Source: Candidatus Udaeobacter sp.
GTDB taxonomy: Bacteria > Verrucomicrobiota > Verrucomicrobiia > Chthoniobacterales > UBA10450
NCBI GenBank assembly: GCA_013372845.1
Contig: JAALOD010000004.1
Coordinates: 1-37,433 of the forward strand
Length of the DNA stretch: 37,433 nt
Direction: 5' to 3'
The notes under the pieces were generated by a model that made no database searches, was not told where the DNA came from, and saw only the letters and a program-made list of their open reading frames with translations. The position numbers and the translations under genes were made by a program. Positions 16,636 to 34,600 of this stretch are shown here, piece after piece; the first letter of the stretch is position 1; each line of letters begins with the position of its first letter.

Positions 16636-16673
16636 AACCTGTGTCCCTCCGGTTTCAGTCTCGAAAGGAAAAA

Positions 16674-16802
16674 TGACGAAATCCGAATAACGAAACGCGA
16701 AAGAATGACAAATCATCAAATGACGAACATCGCGATAAAGCTTTTTCGTCATTCGGGCTTCGTGCTTCTTTCGTCATTCGTCATTCGACCTTCGTCATTA
16801 GT
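16674..16802. repeat. GAATGACGAA-family inverted repeat, copy 1
   Basis: Left half is built of AATGACGAA-like words, right half of their complements (TTCGTCATT, TTCGTGCTTC), giving a ~130-bp imperfect hairpin. It fills the gap after the PBP gene. Two more copies lie at 30537-30667 and 32270-32382. Confidence 0.75.
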
Positions 16803-19448: not shown

Positions 19449-20420
19449 ATGGACTACCTTGAAAAGGCCGGACGCGTCCTGGACATAGAAATTTTTGAGC
19501 TCAAGCGGTTGCGGGAGCGTCTGGGCGAAAATTTCTCTCGAGCCGTTGAACTCATCAAGGAGACGGTCGATGCGCGGGGCAAAGTCGTTGTAGTCGGAGT
19601 CGGTAAGTCCGGACATATCGGCGCGAAGATCGCGGCCACGCTTACCAGCACCGGGTCGCCGGCTGTGGTGCTCGATTCTTCGAACGCGTTGCATGGCGAC
19701 CTCGGCGTAATTGCCGATGGCGACCTGGTGCTGGCTTTGAGCGCAAGCGGGGAGACGGAAGAAATGGTCCGGATTCTGCCGGCGATTGCCCGCTTTCAAG
19801 TGCGGATCATTGCCATATGCGGCGATCCGAAATCAACGCTCGCGCAGAACGCGCATCTGTTTCTCGACGTGAACATCGAGCAGGAAGCGTGTCCGCTAAA
19901 TCTTGCGCCGACGTCGAGCACCACAGTGATGCTGGCACTGGGCGACGCCCTGGCGATGGTTTTGCTCGAGGCGCGCGGATTCAACAAGGAGGATTTTGCG
20001 AAGTTTCATCCGGGTGGAATGATCGGGCGCAGCATGCTGATGCGTGTGCACCAGGTCATGCGACCACGTGAAGCCATGGCAATTGTTTCTACGGATACAT
20101 CTGTGCGTGACGTGCTAAAGACTATGACTGGCGTGCGTGCTGGCGCTGCCGTTGTAACCGACGAAAATCAGAAATTACTCGGTATTTTTACCCATGGCGA
20201 TTTCGTGCGGCATTTTCAATTCGATTCAAAGATCGGCGAACGACTGGTCGCGGATCTAATGACATTGAATCCTGTGACGGTGCATAAAGATAAACTTGCC
20301 GTTGAGGTTCTTAATCTCCTCGAACGCCACCGCATCGACGACCTGGTCGTCGTCGATGATGACAGCGTGCCGGTCGGCATTGTTGATTCGCAGGATCTGA
20401 CGCGGCTAAAGCTACTGTAG
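19449..20420 (+). CDS. kdsD: Arabinose-5-phosphate isomerase (KdsD/KpsF/GutQ)
   Basis: Interconverts ribulose 5-phosphate and arabinose 5-phosphate, the first step to Kdo for LPS. 323 residues: SIS domain (about 30-175; VVVVGVGKSGHIGAKIAATL, NALHGDLGVIADGDLVLALSASGET, CPLNLAPTSSTTVMLALGDALA) and two CBS domains (about 200-320; MRPREAMAIVSTDTSVRDVL, FTHGDFVRHF, HRIDDLVVVDDD). The start at 19449 gives the family-typical N-terminus; an upstream ATG would overlap the divergent secreted-protein gene. The stop TAG (20418-20420) is the first part of a TGTAGGGC repeat boundary. Shows that the organism makes Kdo-LPS. Confidence 0.93.
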   Translation: MDYLEKAGRVLDIEIFELKRLRERLGENFSRAVELIKETVDARGKVVVVGVGKSGHIGAKIAATLTSTGSPAVVLDSSNALHGDLGVIADGDLVLALSASGETEEMVRILPAIARFQVRIIAICGDPKSTLAQNAHLFLDVNIEQEACPLNLAPTSSTTVMLALGDALAMVLLEARGFNKEDFAKFHPGGMIGRSMLMRVHQVMRPREAMAIVSTDTSVRDVLKTMTGVRAGAAVVTDENQKLLGIFTHGDFVRHFQFDSKIGERLVADLMTLNPVTVHKDKLAVEVLNLLERHRIDDLVVVDDDSVPVGIVDSQDLTRLKLL

Positions 20421-20465
20421 GGCAACCGCGTCCGTTGGCGCGGCAGGCGATGCGCCTGCCCTACA
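20416..20465. repeat. TGTAG...CTACA palindromic repeat, downstream of kdsD
   Basis: Bounded by TGTAG and CTACA. It contains a CCGCG/CGCGG stem and a perfect 8-bp stem with a 3-base loop, GGCAGGCG-ATG-CGCCTGCC (20442-20460). The TAG of the boundary is the kdsD stop codon. Confidence 0.75.
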
Positions 20466-22130: not shown

Positions 22131-22165
22131 GTAGGACGTCTGTGTCAGACGCCTTTTAGCTACAG
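22131..22165. repeat. GTAGGACGTCTG...CAGACGCC palindrome at the treY end
   Basis: CGTCTG-TGT-CAGACG stem with one flanking mismatch. The 21 bases at 22133-22153 recur exactly, mismatch included, at 34551-34571. On the minus strand the treY stop codon (CTGTAG) lies at its edge. Confidence 0.75.
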
Positions 22166-25105: not shown

Positions 25106-26842
25106 CTACATTTTTTCCGGCACTTTGATGCCTAACAAGTCGAGTCCGCGATAAAGGACTTTCGCGGTGAGATCGCACAAAGCCAGTCGCGAGCCGCGCA
25201 CCGGTTCCTCCGATTTCAAGACCGGACAGGCTTCGTAAAAGGTATGGAAGCTGTTCGCCACTTCGAAGAGATAATTTGCCAGAATATTCGGACGGAAATC
25301 GTTCAATACGTGTGGAACGATCTCTGCGAACTGACACAGGCGTTTTGCAAGGTTGATTTCGGCGGAATCGCCGAGCTGTAGTGGCATTGGCTTCCAGCCA
25401 ACCTGTTCATCGGCAGGATGCCGATGCCACGACTCGCCTGCTTTACGGAAAATCGAGCGAATTCGCACATACGCATTCTGCAAATAAGGAGCCGTATTTC
25501 CCTGGAGGGACAACATTTTCTCCCATGAAAAAACGTAATCCGTCATCCGGTACTGTGACAGATCAGCGTATTTGACTGCACCAATCCCGATTTTCTGCGC
25601 GACATCGATCTTTTCTGCCTCGCTCAGGTCTGGATTTTTTTCATCGATAATCTTGCGCGCGCGCCTGCATGCTTCCTCGAGAAGCCCGCGCAACGGCACG
25701 TTTTCGCCCGAACGTGTTTTCATCAATTTGCGATCTTCCCCAAGGATGCTGCCAAACGTGATGTGTCGGAGATCCGCTCGATAACCCTGTTGCCGTGCAA
25801 TCTCGAAAATTTGTTTGAAATGCAAGGTCTGCGGAGCACCGACCACGTACCAAACGCTGTCCGCTTTCAAGTCGTCGAGGCGATAATCGATGGTCGCGAT
25901 GTCTGTGGTGGCGTAATTGAATCCGCCGTCGCGTTTGCGGATGATGCATGGCTTGTCAGCCAGCTCCGGAATATCGCGAAAGAAAACAACAACGGCGCCC
26001 TCGCTGATCTCAGCAATCCCGGATTTGAGCAAGCGTTCGACTACGCCTGGGAGGCGGTCGTTGTAAAAACTTTCGCCGCACTGAATGTCGTAATGAATAT
26101 CGAGCAATTCGTACACGTGCTCGAAGTCCTGCATGGAAAAGGCGACGCATTCGTTCCAGATGTCGATGTTTTCCTTGTCGCCGCCCTGCAGTTTTACCAG
26201 CTCCCGGCGGCAGGCTTCCCGAACCTGGGGATCGCTGGTCGCCAGTGCGTTCGTCTCCTTGTAAATCCGGACAATCTCGGCCAGGGGATCCTGCTGAAGT
26301 GCGCGCTGGTCCAGGAGATTCTTCCACCCGTAAATGACCATTCCAAATTGAGTCCCCCAGTCGCCGATATGATTGTCGCGGATGACTTCGTGCCCAAGAA
26401 ACGTTGCGATCCGCGCCAACGCGTCCCCCAGAACGGTGCTGCGGATGTGACCGACATGCATCGGTTTGGCCACGTTGGGCGATCCGAAATCAATCACGAT
26501 GCGCCGCGGCGATTCTGTCTCCACAACGCCGAGTCTTTCATCGCCCAGGATTCTGGCGGTTTTTTCGGCAATGGCGCCAGGCCGCAACGTAAAATTGATG
26601 AAACCCGGGCCTGCGACTACCGGCGGTTCGCAAAGATCGCCAACGTTAAGATGCCCGATGATTTTCTCCGCGAGTTCCCGCGGATTTTCGCCGCGCTGCT
26701 TTCCGAGCACGAGAGCAGCATTTGTCTGATAATCGCCGAAGCGTTGGTCGGTTGCTGGTGTTAATTCGCCCGCGTCCGGCAAGCCGGCGGCGGCCAGGGC
26801 GTCGGAAAGCTTCTTTGCGAGAAGTGATTGAAATGTTTCCAT
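25106..26842 (-). CDS. argS: Arginyl-tRNA synthetase
   Basis: Class I aminoacyl-tRNA synthetase, 578 residues. N-terminal additional domain (DQRFGDYQTNAALVLGKQRG), HIGH-type motif GSPNVAKPMHVGHIRSTVLG, catalytic-domain motifs NHIGDWGTQFGM and RKRDGGFNYATTDIATI, a KMSK-like LMKTRSG, and the C-terminal anticodon-binding helices ending VLYRGLDLLGIKVPEKM. About 17 residues (SWHRHPADEQVGWKPMP) between the RIRSIFRKAG and LGDSAEINLAKRL segments are encoded by a compound palindrome and are not usual for ArgS. Confidence 0.96.
   Translation of the reverse strand: METFQSLLAKKLSDALAAAGLPDAGELTPATDQRFGDYQTNAALVLGKQRGENPRELAEKIIGHLNVGDLCEPPVVAGPGFINFTLRPGAIAEKTARILGDERLGVVETESPRRIVIDFGSPNVAKPMHVGHIRSTVLGDALARIATFLGHEVIRDNHIGDWGTQFGMVIYGWKNLLDQRALQQDPLAEIVRIYKETNALATSDPQVREACRRELVKLQGGDKENIDIWNECVAFSMQDFEHVYELLDIHYDIQCGESFYNDRLPGVVERLLKSGIAEISEGAVVVFFRDIPELADKPCIIRKRDGGFNYATTDIATIDYRLDDLKADSVWYVVGAPQTLHFKQIFEIARQQGYRADLRHITFGSILGEDRKLMKTRSGENVPLRGLLEEACRRARKIIDEKNPDLSEAEKIDVAQKIGIGAVKYADLSQYRMTDYVFSWEKMLSLQGNTAPYLQNAYVRIRSIFRKAGESWHRHPADEQVGWKPMPLQLGDSAEINLAKRLCQFAEIVPHVLNDFRPNILANYLFEVANSFHTFYEACPVLKSEEPVRGSRLALCDLTAKVLYRGLDLLGIKVPEKM
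25377..25430. repeat. Compound palindrome in frame within argS
   Basis: Outer arms GTGGCATTGGC / GCCGATGCCAC (one G-T wobble) enclose two perfect stems with 3-base loops: TTGGCT-TCC-AGCCAA (25387-25401) and CATCGGCA-GGA-TGCCGATG (25408-25426). The left edge is TGTAG, as in the intergenic repeats. It is read in frame in argS. Confidence 0.8.
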
Positions 26843-30528: not shown

Positions 30529-31317
30529 ATGCTGCACAATGACGAAGCACGAATGACGACTGACGAAACAAGCTCGAATGCTCCAATGACGAATGCACGA
30601 TTAGGGGCTCGCTTTTCGCTATTCCCGTTTCGTCATTCCTTCGACATTCGACGTTCGTCATTCGTCCTTAGTTTGACAGTGGCCGCGTTGTCACTCTTCG
30701 CTGAACCGCCACCGTCAGCCAAAGACATTCTCGCCTCGGTGCGCATGATGGAGTCGCGACAGCAAATCGATCTTCAGGGACAACTTCGTCGAAATGACTT
30801 GGTGGTTCCGTTTCACCTGGTTCAAAACGGACCGCTGATTCGCTATGCATTCGCAAATCCCGATGAAGTTCTACAATTGCGTCTCGGCGAAAACAGTTCG
30901 CGCCTTGATCTTGTGACCGGCGACGGCACCGAGCAATTTGCGGCCTCGAAGCTCAAGGAAGAAATTCGCGGTACCAGCGTGACCTATGAGGACCTGGCAT
31001 TTAAATTTCTCTACTGGCCGAGCGCGCGCGTCTTGGGCGAGGAAAAAGTTCGCACTCGCAATTGCTGGAAATTGCAACTGCGCGCGCCCTCGCGCGAATC
31101 GCAGTATTCCAATCTGCTGCTGTGGATAGACAAGGCGAGCGGCGCGCTGATGCGCATGGAGGGCTACGATTGGGATGCTCAACTGGCCAAGCGTTTCGAA
31201 GTCGTCTCCGCTCAGAAAATAGAAGGCCGCTGGTTTCTAAAACAAATGCGTATCGAGGAACTCCAGCCTGGCACGAACGACGTGCTATCGCGAACGTATC
31301 TCGAGATTAAAAGATAG
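30529..31317 (+). CDS. LolA-like / outer-membrane lipoprotein-sorting family secreted protein
   Basis: 262 residues at most. The mature part (AKDILASVRMMESRQQIDLQ... to ...SRTYLEIKR) is the beta-rich fold of LolA/LolB-like 'outer membrane lipoprotein-sorting' proteins, with LLLWIDKASGALMRMEGYD. The hydrophobic signal segment FVLSLTVAALSLFA is preceded by about 40 residues translated from a GAATGACGAA repeat (RHSFDIRRSSF). The true start may be the ATG at 30586, or a TTG/GTG at about 30672/30678, or the repeat may now supply it. Possible role: carrying a lipid or lipoprotein across the periplasm. Confidence 0.7.
   Translation: MLHNDEARMTTDETSSNAPMTNARLGARFSLFPFRHSFDIRRSSFVLSLTVAALSLFAEPPPSAKDILASVRMMESRQQIDLQGQLRRNDLVVPFHLVQNGPLIRYAFANPDEVLQLRLGENSSRLDLVTGDGTEQFAASKLKEEIRGTSVTYEDLAFKFLYWPSARVLGEEKVRTRNCWKLQLRAPSRESQYSNLLLWIDKASGALMRMEGYDWDAQLAKRFEVVSAQKIEGRWFLKQMRIEELQPGTNDVLSRTYLEIKR
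30537..30667. repeat. GAATGACGAA-family inverted repeat, copy 2
   Basis: Left arm with AATGACGAAGCACGAATGAC, right arm with TTCGTCATTCCTTCG and TTCGTCATTCGTCCT. It overlaps the 5' end of the LolA-like gene and is the DNA behind its odd N-terminal residues. Confidence 0.75.
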
Positions 31318-31939: not shown

Positions 31940-32364
31940 GTTGATCCTTACGTTTAGTCCAATTATTGAATTGGCGGAGCGCATCGAGCGATGCACCGTC
32001 CGCAGCGCGCCAATCATCCAGAGCCCATTCAAACAAGGCACTCTGCGACGCCGTTGGAAACTCCGCCTCGTCGAGCCGGGATTGGACTTGTCTTACTGCG
32101 CGAGCCTGCGAACTCAACCAACGAAGCAGCCAAGGCGCAAAACTCCGCACCGTGGTATCGAAAAATCTGAATCGTCGTAGAAAACGGAGGCTCGGAAAAC
32201 CGAACAAGAATCCCGACATCTCGCGGGATTATGGCCTGCTTCGGGCGGGTTTGCAAGCGGGGATTAGAAATGACGAAGCACGAATGTCGAATGCCAAAGG
32301 AATGACGAATTACGAAATTTGCCCAGCGAGATCGATATCTCTTTCATGTTCCTTCAAGCATTCG
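31940..32364. other. Gap between the RRM gene and the sulfotransferase gene
   Basis: Contains a GAATGACGAA repeat (32270-32382) and about 330 bases of leader. On the minus strand from 32219 an open frame of 164 codons runs into the RRM gene in another frame. Its first ~90 residues (SRLDEAEFPTASQSALFEWA, LDDWRAADGASLDALRQFNN) have a protein-like look but no ribosome binding site and no family that I know, so it is left uncalled. Confidence 0.5.
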
Positions 32365-32382
32365 TCATTTGGATTTCGACAT
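32270..32382. repeat. GAATGACGAA-family inverted repeat, copy 3
   Basis: AAATGACGAAGCACGAATG on the left, GCATTCGTCATTTGGATTTC on the right. The right arm contains the TGA stop of the sulfotransferase gene (on minus, CCAAATGACGAATG), so the last residues MSKSK come from the repeat. Confidence 0.75.
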
Positions 32383-33426
32383 TGCGTCGCGGATCGAGTA
32401 GAGCCGCGACTTCGCATACTCCCGGGGGCGTTCACCGCGAATCGGACGCACAAATGATCGCAGCTCGCGTCCTTGTAGTCTTGGCTCGTAGCCGAATTCC
32501 GGCATGAGATCGCGGCAGTGCCATTCTACCCATCCGATTTCGTCTTCGGACAGTTCCCGCTGCCAGCGCGTTGCCGGTTCTGGACTGATCTGTGAAAAGT
32601 TGATGCGCGCCGCTGAGTTACCGCTCCAAAACCGGCCCACCTTTGTCGGTGTAAGCACCGTTTCCGGATCGAAATTGATCTCGAGGTAGGCGCAAACCTT
32701 TTCCATTGTCCTGGCCGGTTCGCAGACCAATTGCTCATACGGCACTACAAAACCCGGAATTTCACCATCGCGCACACGCCGCGCCAGTGCGGCGGCGACC
32801 AGCCAGTGGGCGATCACGTAATAAGTTGAAAACCTTCCTGTTTGCCTTGTTTTCTCCAGCGCGATTTGCGCTGCAAGAATGGCACGCGGATCGCGCATTG
32901 TGACGAGAATTTTCGCGTGCGGAAAACGCCGCAGAATTTCTGAAATGTGATTGCGATTAGCCGGGGTTTTTTCCACCCACCGCCCGATGGAGTCGAGCGG
33001 ACGTTCCAGCGTTGCCGCGTACGCTTTGACCATTAGCACGAGCAGATCTTCCTGCGCGTTGGCAGAATCGAATGCCGCCCGCCCGAACGTCTCCAGAAAT
33101 TTCTCGCTCGGAAACGTCGCATAGCTTCGTTTACCCCATTTGCATGGCCCGCCGAAGAGCACATTCGACAGCGATTGTTTGGTCAGATAATCAAACTGCG
33201 CGCGACGACCGCGCGACGCATATTTCGTAAGAACGGTAGGGAAATACGCAGTTTCTTCCGGCAACACGAGTAACTCCAGATGATTATCCAGCAACGCCAC
33301 CAAAAGCGTGGTGCCCGATTTCGCCTGGCCCGCGATAAAACAGGCGCGTTGATCGAATGGCAGAGCGTCCATGGACATCAATCGGTGAACGAATTCATCG
33401 CAACCCAATAATCTTTCGCGCGTCAT
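32365..33426 (-). CDS. Sulfotransferase-family protein
   Basis: 353 residues. The PAPS 5'-phosphosulfate-binding loop is CFIAGQAKSGTTLLVALLDN and the 3'-phosphate motif is ILVTMRDPRAILAAQ. Also WVEKTPANRNHISEIL. Transfers sulfate from PAPS to a carbohydrate, protein or lipid acceptor that the sequence does not reveal. The first ATG (33426) lies in a repeat (GGGATGACG); ATGs 16 or 18 codons on (MSMDALPFDQRACF) are an alternative start. Downstream of the epimerase on the same strand, suggesting surface polysaccharide work. Confidence 0.85.
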   Translation of the reverse strand: MTRERLLGCDEFVHRLMSMDALPFDQRACFIAGQAKSGTTLLVALLDNHLELLVLPEETAYFPTVLTKYASRGRRAQFDYLTKQSLSNVLFGGPCKWGKRSYATFPSEKFLETFGRAAFDSANAQEDLLVLMVKAYAATLERPLDSIGRWVEKTPANRNHISEILRRFPHAKILVTMRDPRAILAAQIALEKTRQTGRFSTYYVIAHWLVAAALARRVRDGEIPGFVVPYEQLVCEPARTMEKVCAYLEINFDPETVLTPTKVGRFWSGNSAARINFSQISPEPATRWQRELSEDEIGWVEWHCRDLMPEFGYEPRLQGRELRSFVRPIRGERPREYAKSRLYSIRDAMSKSK

Positions 33427-34484: not shown

Positions 34485-34550
34485 GGTGCCAGAAGTTCAA
34501 CCACGAAGCACAAGAAGTGCACGAAGAAAATTATGATTGCCTGGCACTCT

Positions 34551-34600
34551 AGGACGTCTGTGTCAGACGCCTGGCGCTTGGTGGAAACGCCCTACAATTC
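34551..34600. repeat. TGTAG-family palindromic repeat, copy near 34.56 kb
   Basis: Repeats exactly the 21 bases found at 22133-22153 (34551-34571) and ends CCCTACAA. Lies between the DUF2752 stop and the epimerase start. Confidence 0.75.

Follow-up and report, generated by a model that had tools for sequence, protein, structure and literature searches.

The argS gene of a Candidatus Udaeobacter genome carries, in frame, a 50-bp compound palindrome that is very likely a REPIN of a low-copy family of the GTAG superfamily (family A), spread by a RAYT transposase, tolerated in a disordered loop of the enzyme and probably functionless for ArgS. The palindrome consists of two inverted REP units, each made of a GTGG tag and a short hairpin. 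We propose that a RAYT spread family A through Udaeobacter-like soil Verrucomicrobiota, and that one REPIN entered the linker between two helices of the ArgRS C-terminal domain, where it would have replaced about 20 bases of host linker. It would have survived because it is stop-free in frame, keeps the frame and falls in a disordered loop, and the same loop appears to have been re-occupied in other species by other REP families.

The window, that is, the whole stretch of DNA that was analysed, comprises 37,433 nucleotides. The host gene was identified by NCBIfam TIGR00456 (521 bits, E 2.7e-156), and matches to solved arginine–tRNA ligases cover ArgS residues 4–578. The features are as follows.

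25106–26842, minus strand: argS, an open frame of 578 aa for arginine–tRNA ligase, in which the insert lies
25381–25430, minus strand: family-A compound palindrome, a head-to-head REP dimer in frame in ArgS, from the compound scan and DNA copies elsewhere
25427–25430, minus strand: GTGG tag of unit 1, identical in 7 of 8 aligned copies, with a one-base difference in the eighth
25408–25426, minus strand: hairpin 1, CATCGGCA-TCC-TGCCGATG, with an 8-bp stem and 3-base loop, read from the sequence
25387–25401, minus strand: hairpin 2, TTGGCT-GGA-AGCCAA, with a 6-bp stem and 3-base loop, the inverted unit 2, read from the sequence
25381–25384, minus strand: CCAC, complement of the second GTGG tag, present in 8 of 8 aligned copies
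25381–25387, minus strand: outer arm ATGCCAC, pairing over 7 bp with GTGGCAT at 25424–25430, from the consensus and the scan

On the coding strand the 50-bp element runs GTGG, hairpin 1, AACAGG, hairpin 2, TG, CCAC, and supplies 16 whole codons, WHRHPADEQVGWKPMP, as ArgS residues 472–487. The sequence-only reading had placed a palindrome at 25377–25430 and credited it with an in-frame insert of about 17 residues; the palindrome and its in-frame coding are real, with the start slightly inside that span, at 25381, and the count at 16. A compound scan for the arrangement described there, two 3-base-loop hairpins within outer arms, with the arms set at 7 bp, recovered this single site from the window; of 60 dinucleotide shuffles, none had such a site. 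The single-strand fold of the element has a z of -2.75, with equally stable shuffles in 0 of 200 cases, and this copy is stop-free in 5 of 6 frames. The TGTAG edge that had been taken as part of the element was rejected as such: the flanks outside GTGG...CCAC are unconserved across the 8 aligned family-A copies. The element ends in GTGG, whereas GTAG marks the ends of other repeat families in the same genome.

The consensus of the 8 copies forms an outer stem and two hairpins, the inverted two-REP organization of a REPIN. The stem of hairpin 1 is mostly preserved, with one pair changed on both sides, and hairpin 2 has two-sided changes at alignment column pairs 42–56 and 43–55; in all, 3 of 19 pairs have changed on both sides with pairing retained, a modest level of support. 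The stems of 8 and 6 bp and the 3-base loops fall within the range that Table 1 of PMC3733652 gives for GTAG REPs (stem 5–13 bp, loop 2–20 bases). Both units carry an unpaired tetranucleotide of the GTAG type in the form GTGG, a variant recorded in section 5 of that paper; a strict GTAG is absent, and GTGG rather than GTAG ends count against the assignment. According to the same paper, most GTAG-20 units of the verrucomicrobium Opitutus terrae have the tag altered to GTGG, a likeness to family A in the tag. The CGTC end motif of Rickettsia palindromic elements was not found at the element's ends, which are GTGG.

Copies of the element are dispersed in its own genome (G000; 3,222,283 bases in 145 contigs, 83% complete). 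A DNA search returned 18 matches at E≤10, seven of them besides the query at E≤3.2e-5 (best 1.5e-9). At E≤1, a covariance model built from 8 family-A copies (model R1) recognized 18 distinct places; the top 12 had E≤4.1e-5, and eight of these had trained the model and match by construction. The family thus has 8 places by DNA, query included, and 12 by the model, one of them probably chance. That one, C102:17492 in a gene for an RlmI-like methyltransferase, was rejected along with six weaker places that look like chance matches or other REP families. Eleven places are convincing, argS and ten others, and in seven of the 11 the copy falls within a domain match to a named protein family: ArgS, UvrA (C137), MazG (C107), TsaD (C69), the OGG_N domain of 8-oxoguanine glycosylase (C93), a cytidylyltransferase (C31:5655) and an IMS-type polymerase domain (C77). 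The copy at C31:2830 lies in frame between the PurE and TsaC domains of one open frame and may be upstream of the true TsaC start; those at C31:9076, C31:2192 and C59 are seemingly intergenic or at gene starts. As read from the sequences, the copies in UvrA, the cytidylyltransferase and the IMS gene recur in G015, G027 and G007. The copy in the IMS polymerase (L149, about 1501–1598; G000:C77) has a second palindrome nested in it, which the G007 copy (L172) lacks. Family A was detected in 28 of 35 genomes of the genus at E≤1e-4 and, at E≤1e-5, in 44 of 81 genomes and 6 of 14 genera of the family, a search in which both strands of one copy can each count.

The ArgS loop that holds the element is patchily filled among relatives. 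The segment measures 34 residues here versus 24 in insert-free relatives, and a near relative of about 90% identity (L061) is without it. Among same-genus ArgS loci, this one included, 16 of 30 have an insert and 14 of 30 have the 24-residue form. A wider, overlapping set of 81 ArgS (this one and 80 GTDB loci, partly of the same species) was classified by hand; the loop was unreadable in L118, L119, L123 and L127, and 21 of the 77 readable loops contain an insert, in the following states.

State A: the present ArgS, L062 (decayed) and L063
State B, with GTAG ends: L064, L069, L074, L076, L077, L094 and L095; decayed in L060 and L089
State B reversed: L080
State half-B: L090
State D: L106
State E: L085 and L088; doubtful in L101 and L103
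Two further palindromes: L065 and L084

At least four repeat types therefore occupy one ArgS loop among related species, with near relatives empty, and units of the B, D and E types also occur near RAYT genes (L026, L214 and L194). Patchy occupancy of this kind suggests, from sequence comparison, that the element has been mobile; neither an excision nor a recent insertion was observed. The sequence-only reading had suggested that palindromes of a mobile or copying family can enter coding DNA at tolerated loops; the filling of the loop, the genomic copies and the predicted disorder described below all bear this out, and a segment shared by all ArgS homologues and lacking copies elsewhere, which would have told against it, is not what was observed, since most of the homologues that were read lack it and related copies lie elsewhere in the genome.

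The A insert and most B inserts lengthen the gene by less than the element itself, which implies that host bases were lost. Such loss at the A junction is unlike the clean insertion of a simple transposon and counts against spread by a RAYT; the inserts of L065 and L084 resemble clean additions. The B insert of L077 meets the host at another point than the remaining B inserts and is therefore likely to be independent of them. The L069 element has 30 extra in-frame bases relative to its sister L074. The A elements share one junction in the present ArgS, L062 and L063, and could descend from one old insertion. On an ArgS tree the states require a minimum of 15 changes, or 13 when scored as insert versus none; this is a one-gene tree from a quick search (79 rows, limited to columns that are at least 80% filled) with hand-made state labels, and L118 and L119 are scored as 'none' on it despite their unreadable loops. 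The five-row clade that includes the present ArgS (SH-aLRT 99) contains A, B and empty states.

An AlphaFold model of ArgS, made from 34 ArgS sequences, has a mean pLDDT of 89.6. Its sole segment below 50, residues 473–483, lies between the helices 451–471 and 493–503, so that the structure model places the insert in a loop predicted to be disordered. Its position in the C-terminal helical domain and its open frame in several species would suit an insert selected for protein function, for example an extra ArgRS contact with tRNA or a partner, its palindromy being merely its origin. We consider this improbable: unrelated peptides occupy the same loop, once from a reversed element, near relatives have no insert, L060, L062 and L089 have decayed versions, and the segment itself is predicted to be disordered. 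Slightly less probable still is an RNA element, with the hairpins kept for slowing translation of argS mRNA or tuning its stability. The stable fold and the mostly preserved stems across copies accord with such a role; most argS genes that were read lack the element, however, and family A occurs in either orientation, in unrelated genes and between genes.

A candidate for the transposase came from a comparison of genus-wide position lists of family A and of PF01797, which marks RAYTs. It revealed RAYTs bordered by REPs of the family-A type at two loci of the same genus.

L217, 2715–4427 (G023:C18): RAYT with family-A type REP borders, in frame within tsaC/sua5
L218, 1379–3166, minus strand (G029:C43): RAYT with family-A type REP borders, in frame within tsaC/sua5

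In L217 a complete REP dimer of this type stands on either side of the RAYT. TsaC was matched in 34 of 35 genomes and its linker could be read in 21: it is empty in 17, holds a REP dimer in two (G001 and G006) and holds REP-RAYT-REP in two (G023 and G029). The identical linkers of G026 and G034 may represent one contig in two bins. Passage between the three states might proceed by recombination of the flanking dimers or by insertion into a dimer. Judging from its borders, the tsaC-embedded RAYT of L217 and L218 is likely to be the cognate transposase of family A. Good family-A halves were absent from 34 scanned RAYT-type loci, where the best candidates had 5–6 mismatches.

The genome of the window has four PF01797 places. 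Matching tagged hairpins flank those on C52 and C78 to left and right; next to that on C111 stand a B-like pair at one flank and different hairpins at the other, and that on C99 has none close by. All four adjoin other tagged hairpins or none that are clear, and were rejected as partners of family A; a RAYT resembling the family-A one, or bordered by the same REPs, was not found in this 83%-complete assembly. The data thus establish the family, its anatomy, the patchy occupancy, the predicted disorder and the pairing of RAYT and REPs in relatives, whereas we infer movement within this genome, the tsaC-type RAYT as mover, the neutrality of the insert and the activity of chimaeric proteins. The window also has an intergenic GTAG-tagged palindrome (20417–20464) that matches the REPs around the RAYT on C52.

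The in-frame position within tsaC is one of several. PF01797 gave 193 matches in 33 of the 35 genomes of the genus, and among the matches listed 36 frames reached 500 aa; the other rows listed are shorter and consistent with free-standing genes. These at least 36 fused frames have as hosts CarB (13), RecG (12), MetH (6, at two sites), AlaS (2), TsaC (2) and RarA (1), the 34 beyond tsaC being L219 and L222–L254. Hosts were assigned by Pfam for 33 of 36 and solely by BLAST to the CarB of the window's genome for L241, L245 and L253. The Y1_Tnp scores are about 23–42 bits against a cut-off of 23, low because RAYTs are far from the IS200 model. RAYTs are recognized by an HUH motif and a catalytic tyrosine with an asparagine four residues on. 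For E. coli TnpAREP, PMC6006769 names N119. All 36 long fused frames contain the HxH and YxxxN motifs of Y1 HUH enzymes.

Host sequence flanks the RAYT on both sides, in one frame, in 32 of the 36. The other four have host on one side: the frame opens at a contig start or a stretch of N in L249 and L253, runs to a contig end in L254 and meets a stop after the RAYT in L226. Among the 32, contig ends truncate L222, L236 and L241, the frame breaks further on in the host in L245 and L233, and L246 is without the first MetH domain. Nearly the whole CarB of the window's genome is matched around the RAYT in eight (L219, L224, L225, L230, L235, L237, L250 and L251); the CarB and RecG of that genome themselves have no RAYT. 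By a simple scan, tagged hairpins stand on both sides of the RAYT in seven of the 36 (L217, L218, L223, L225, L237, L244 and L247) and were not found on both sides in the other 29. A CarB search added a RAYT with a broken frame in G012 and one more long fused frame in G032. L349 (G001) has an additional RecG frame with the RAYT motif, PF01797 not being among its domain matches, and L348 (G023:C263) showed no long frame with the motif pattern.

For 15 chosen pairs, dN/dS was 0.06–0.33 in the RAYT (12 computable, 3 saturated) and 0.04–0.14 in the host. Sequence comparison thus indicates that the embedded RAYT is under purifying selection, which for CarB is weaker than on the host. The synonymous difference is lower in the RAYT than in the host for two CarB pairs (0.21 versus 0.56 and 0.40 versus 0.54), which suggests exchange or later arrival of the RAYT. 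A RAYT tree has at least 8 changes of host label, with 9 of 33 inner branches well supported and a very long branch for the RAYT on C111; the CarB RAYT of G004 falls apart from the other CarB RAYTs, and the RecG RAYTs form two groups. The search was extended to 117 genomes of the order, and five long-frame places among the matches listed were read. In another family, L343:1268–4576 (G092) is a LeuS frame with an inserted RAYT. L345:1874–4024, minus strand (G103:C330), is a single frame of 717 aa in which the HUH RAYT motif occurs twice and a host domain is absent; no long frame with the motif was seen at L344, L346 and L347.

On this basis we advance, with a little less than even confidence, the view that in Udaeobacter-like Verrucomicrobiota RAYTs reside as in-frame domains of needed enzymes (CarB, RecG, MetH, AlaS and TsaC, and LeuS in another family), where they would form dual-active chimaeras, be shielded from loss and seed REPINs such as that of ArgS into permissive loops of other enzymes, in an intein-like manner without splicing. 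Inteins likewise reside in frame within needed enzymes and leave the reading frame of the host open; the embedded unit here differs in consisting of a Y1 transposase with REPs.

Since the genomes are mostly fragmented bins, the in-frame transposases and repeat inserts might be assembly chimaeras. The RecG fusions of G022:C334 and G006:C63 are 99.6% identical, probably through bin contamination; an unfused RecG is present in G022 as well, and both forms occur in G021, which means that some contigs are misplaced. As a general explanation this is very unlikely: the fusions recur, in differing form, in many separate bins, their host and RAYT parts combine a low dN/dS with large synonymous distances, and the ArgS states are found again in named GTDB records. 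An ordinary lineage-specific ArgRS loop, palindromic by chance, can practically be dismissed even though insert-free ArgRS also vary somewhat in length, given that no shuffle yielded the structure and that genomic copies reach an E of 1.5e-9.

GTAG REPs (Di Nocera et al. 2013, PMC3733652) resemble family A, in the sections of that paper compared, in being tagged short hairpins, many with 2–3 base loops, with head-to-head dimers and in-frame copies. The same sections report copies translated in frame in uvrA, in tRNA synthetases and in repair genes, with Opitutus terrae the richest, and different REPs at about the same recB site of two Xanthomonas species. In-frame REPs being already published, the ArgS element alone is of a known type and a modest addition to intragenic REPs, and any implication of the sequence-only reading that in-frame palindromes lack precedent falls away. 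The differences are that several repeat types here share one ArgS loop within one clade and that, set against sections 5, 14–16 and part of 17 of PMC3733652, the RAYT itself is in frame within enzymes. The parts of Bertels and Rainey (2011; PMC3116915) compared describe, as here, an inverted REP pair with a short spacer as the unit, and a RAYT beside matching REPs, which for the family-A type was seen in L217 and L218; their REPs are extragenic, in contrast to the coding-domain location of most convincing family-A places and to the low copy number here. Rickettsia palindromic elements, as cited in part of PMC3733652, are like family A palindromes translated in frame in many proteins, but RPE-4 and RPE-6 of R. 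conorii are of the CGTC type, a class without an associated transposase, whereas REPs of the family-A type accompany a RAYT in two genomes of the genus. A part of PMC6006769 mentions that 'unexpectedly long' proteins were discarded as gene fusions or annotation errors. No report of in-frame RAYTs within enzymes, or of repeats of this sort in Verrucomicrobia or Udaeobacter, was found in the open-access literature searched. The repeated filling of one ArgS loop and the embedded RAYTs go beyond what the ArgS element by itself would add.

The persistence of RAYTs in bacterial lineages still awaits an explanation. An addiction system and a host function are named as possible bases in part of PMC3116915. 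If the embedding proposed above is true, a frameshift or imprecise deletion of a RAYT in a needed gene would break the host enzyme, which would give a direct and testable answer. The ArgS loop, with its empty, A, B, reversed-B, D, E and other states in one family, forms a natural record of repeats invading coding sequence, and the TsaC linker a series from empty through REP dimer to REP-RAYT-REP; together they present selfish DNA as a source of protein segments.

The window has further repeats. An identical 23-base repeat, TAGGACGTCTGTGTCAGACGCCT, occurs twice (22132–22154 and 34550–34572), and degenerate AATGACGAA/TTCGTCATT repeats, partly inverted, lie at 16672–16799, 30538–30669 and 32269–32383.
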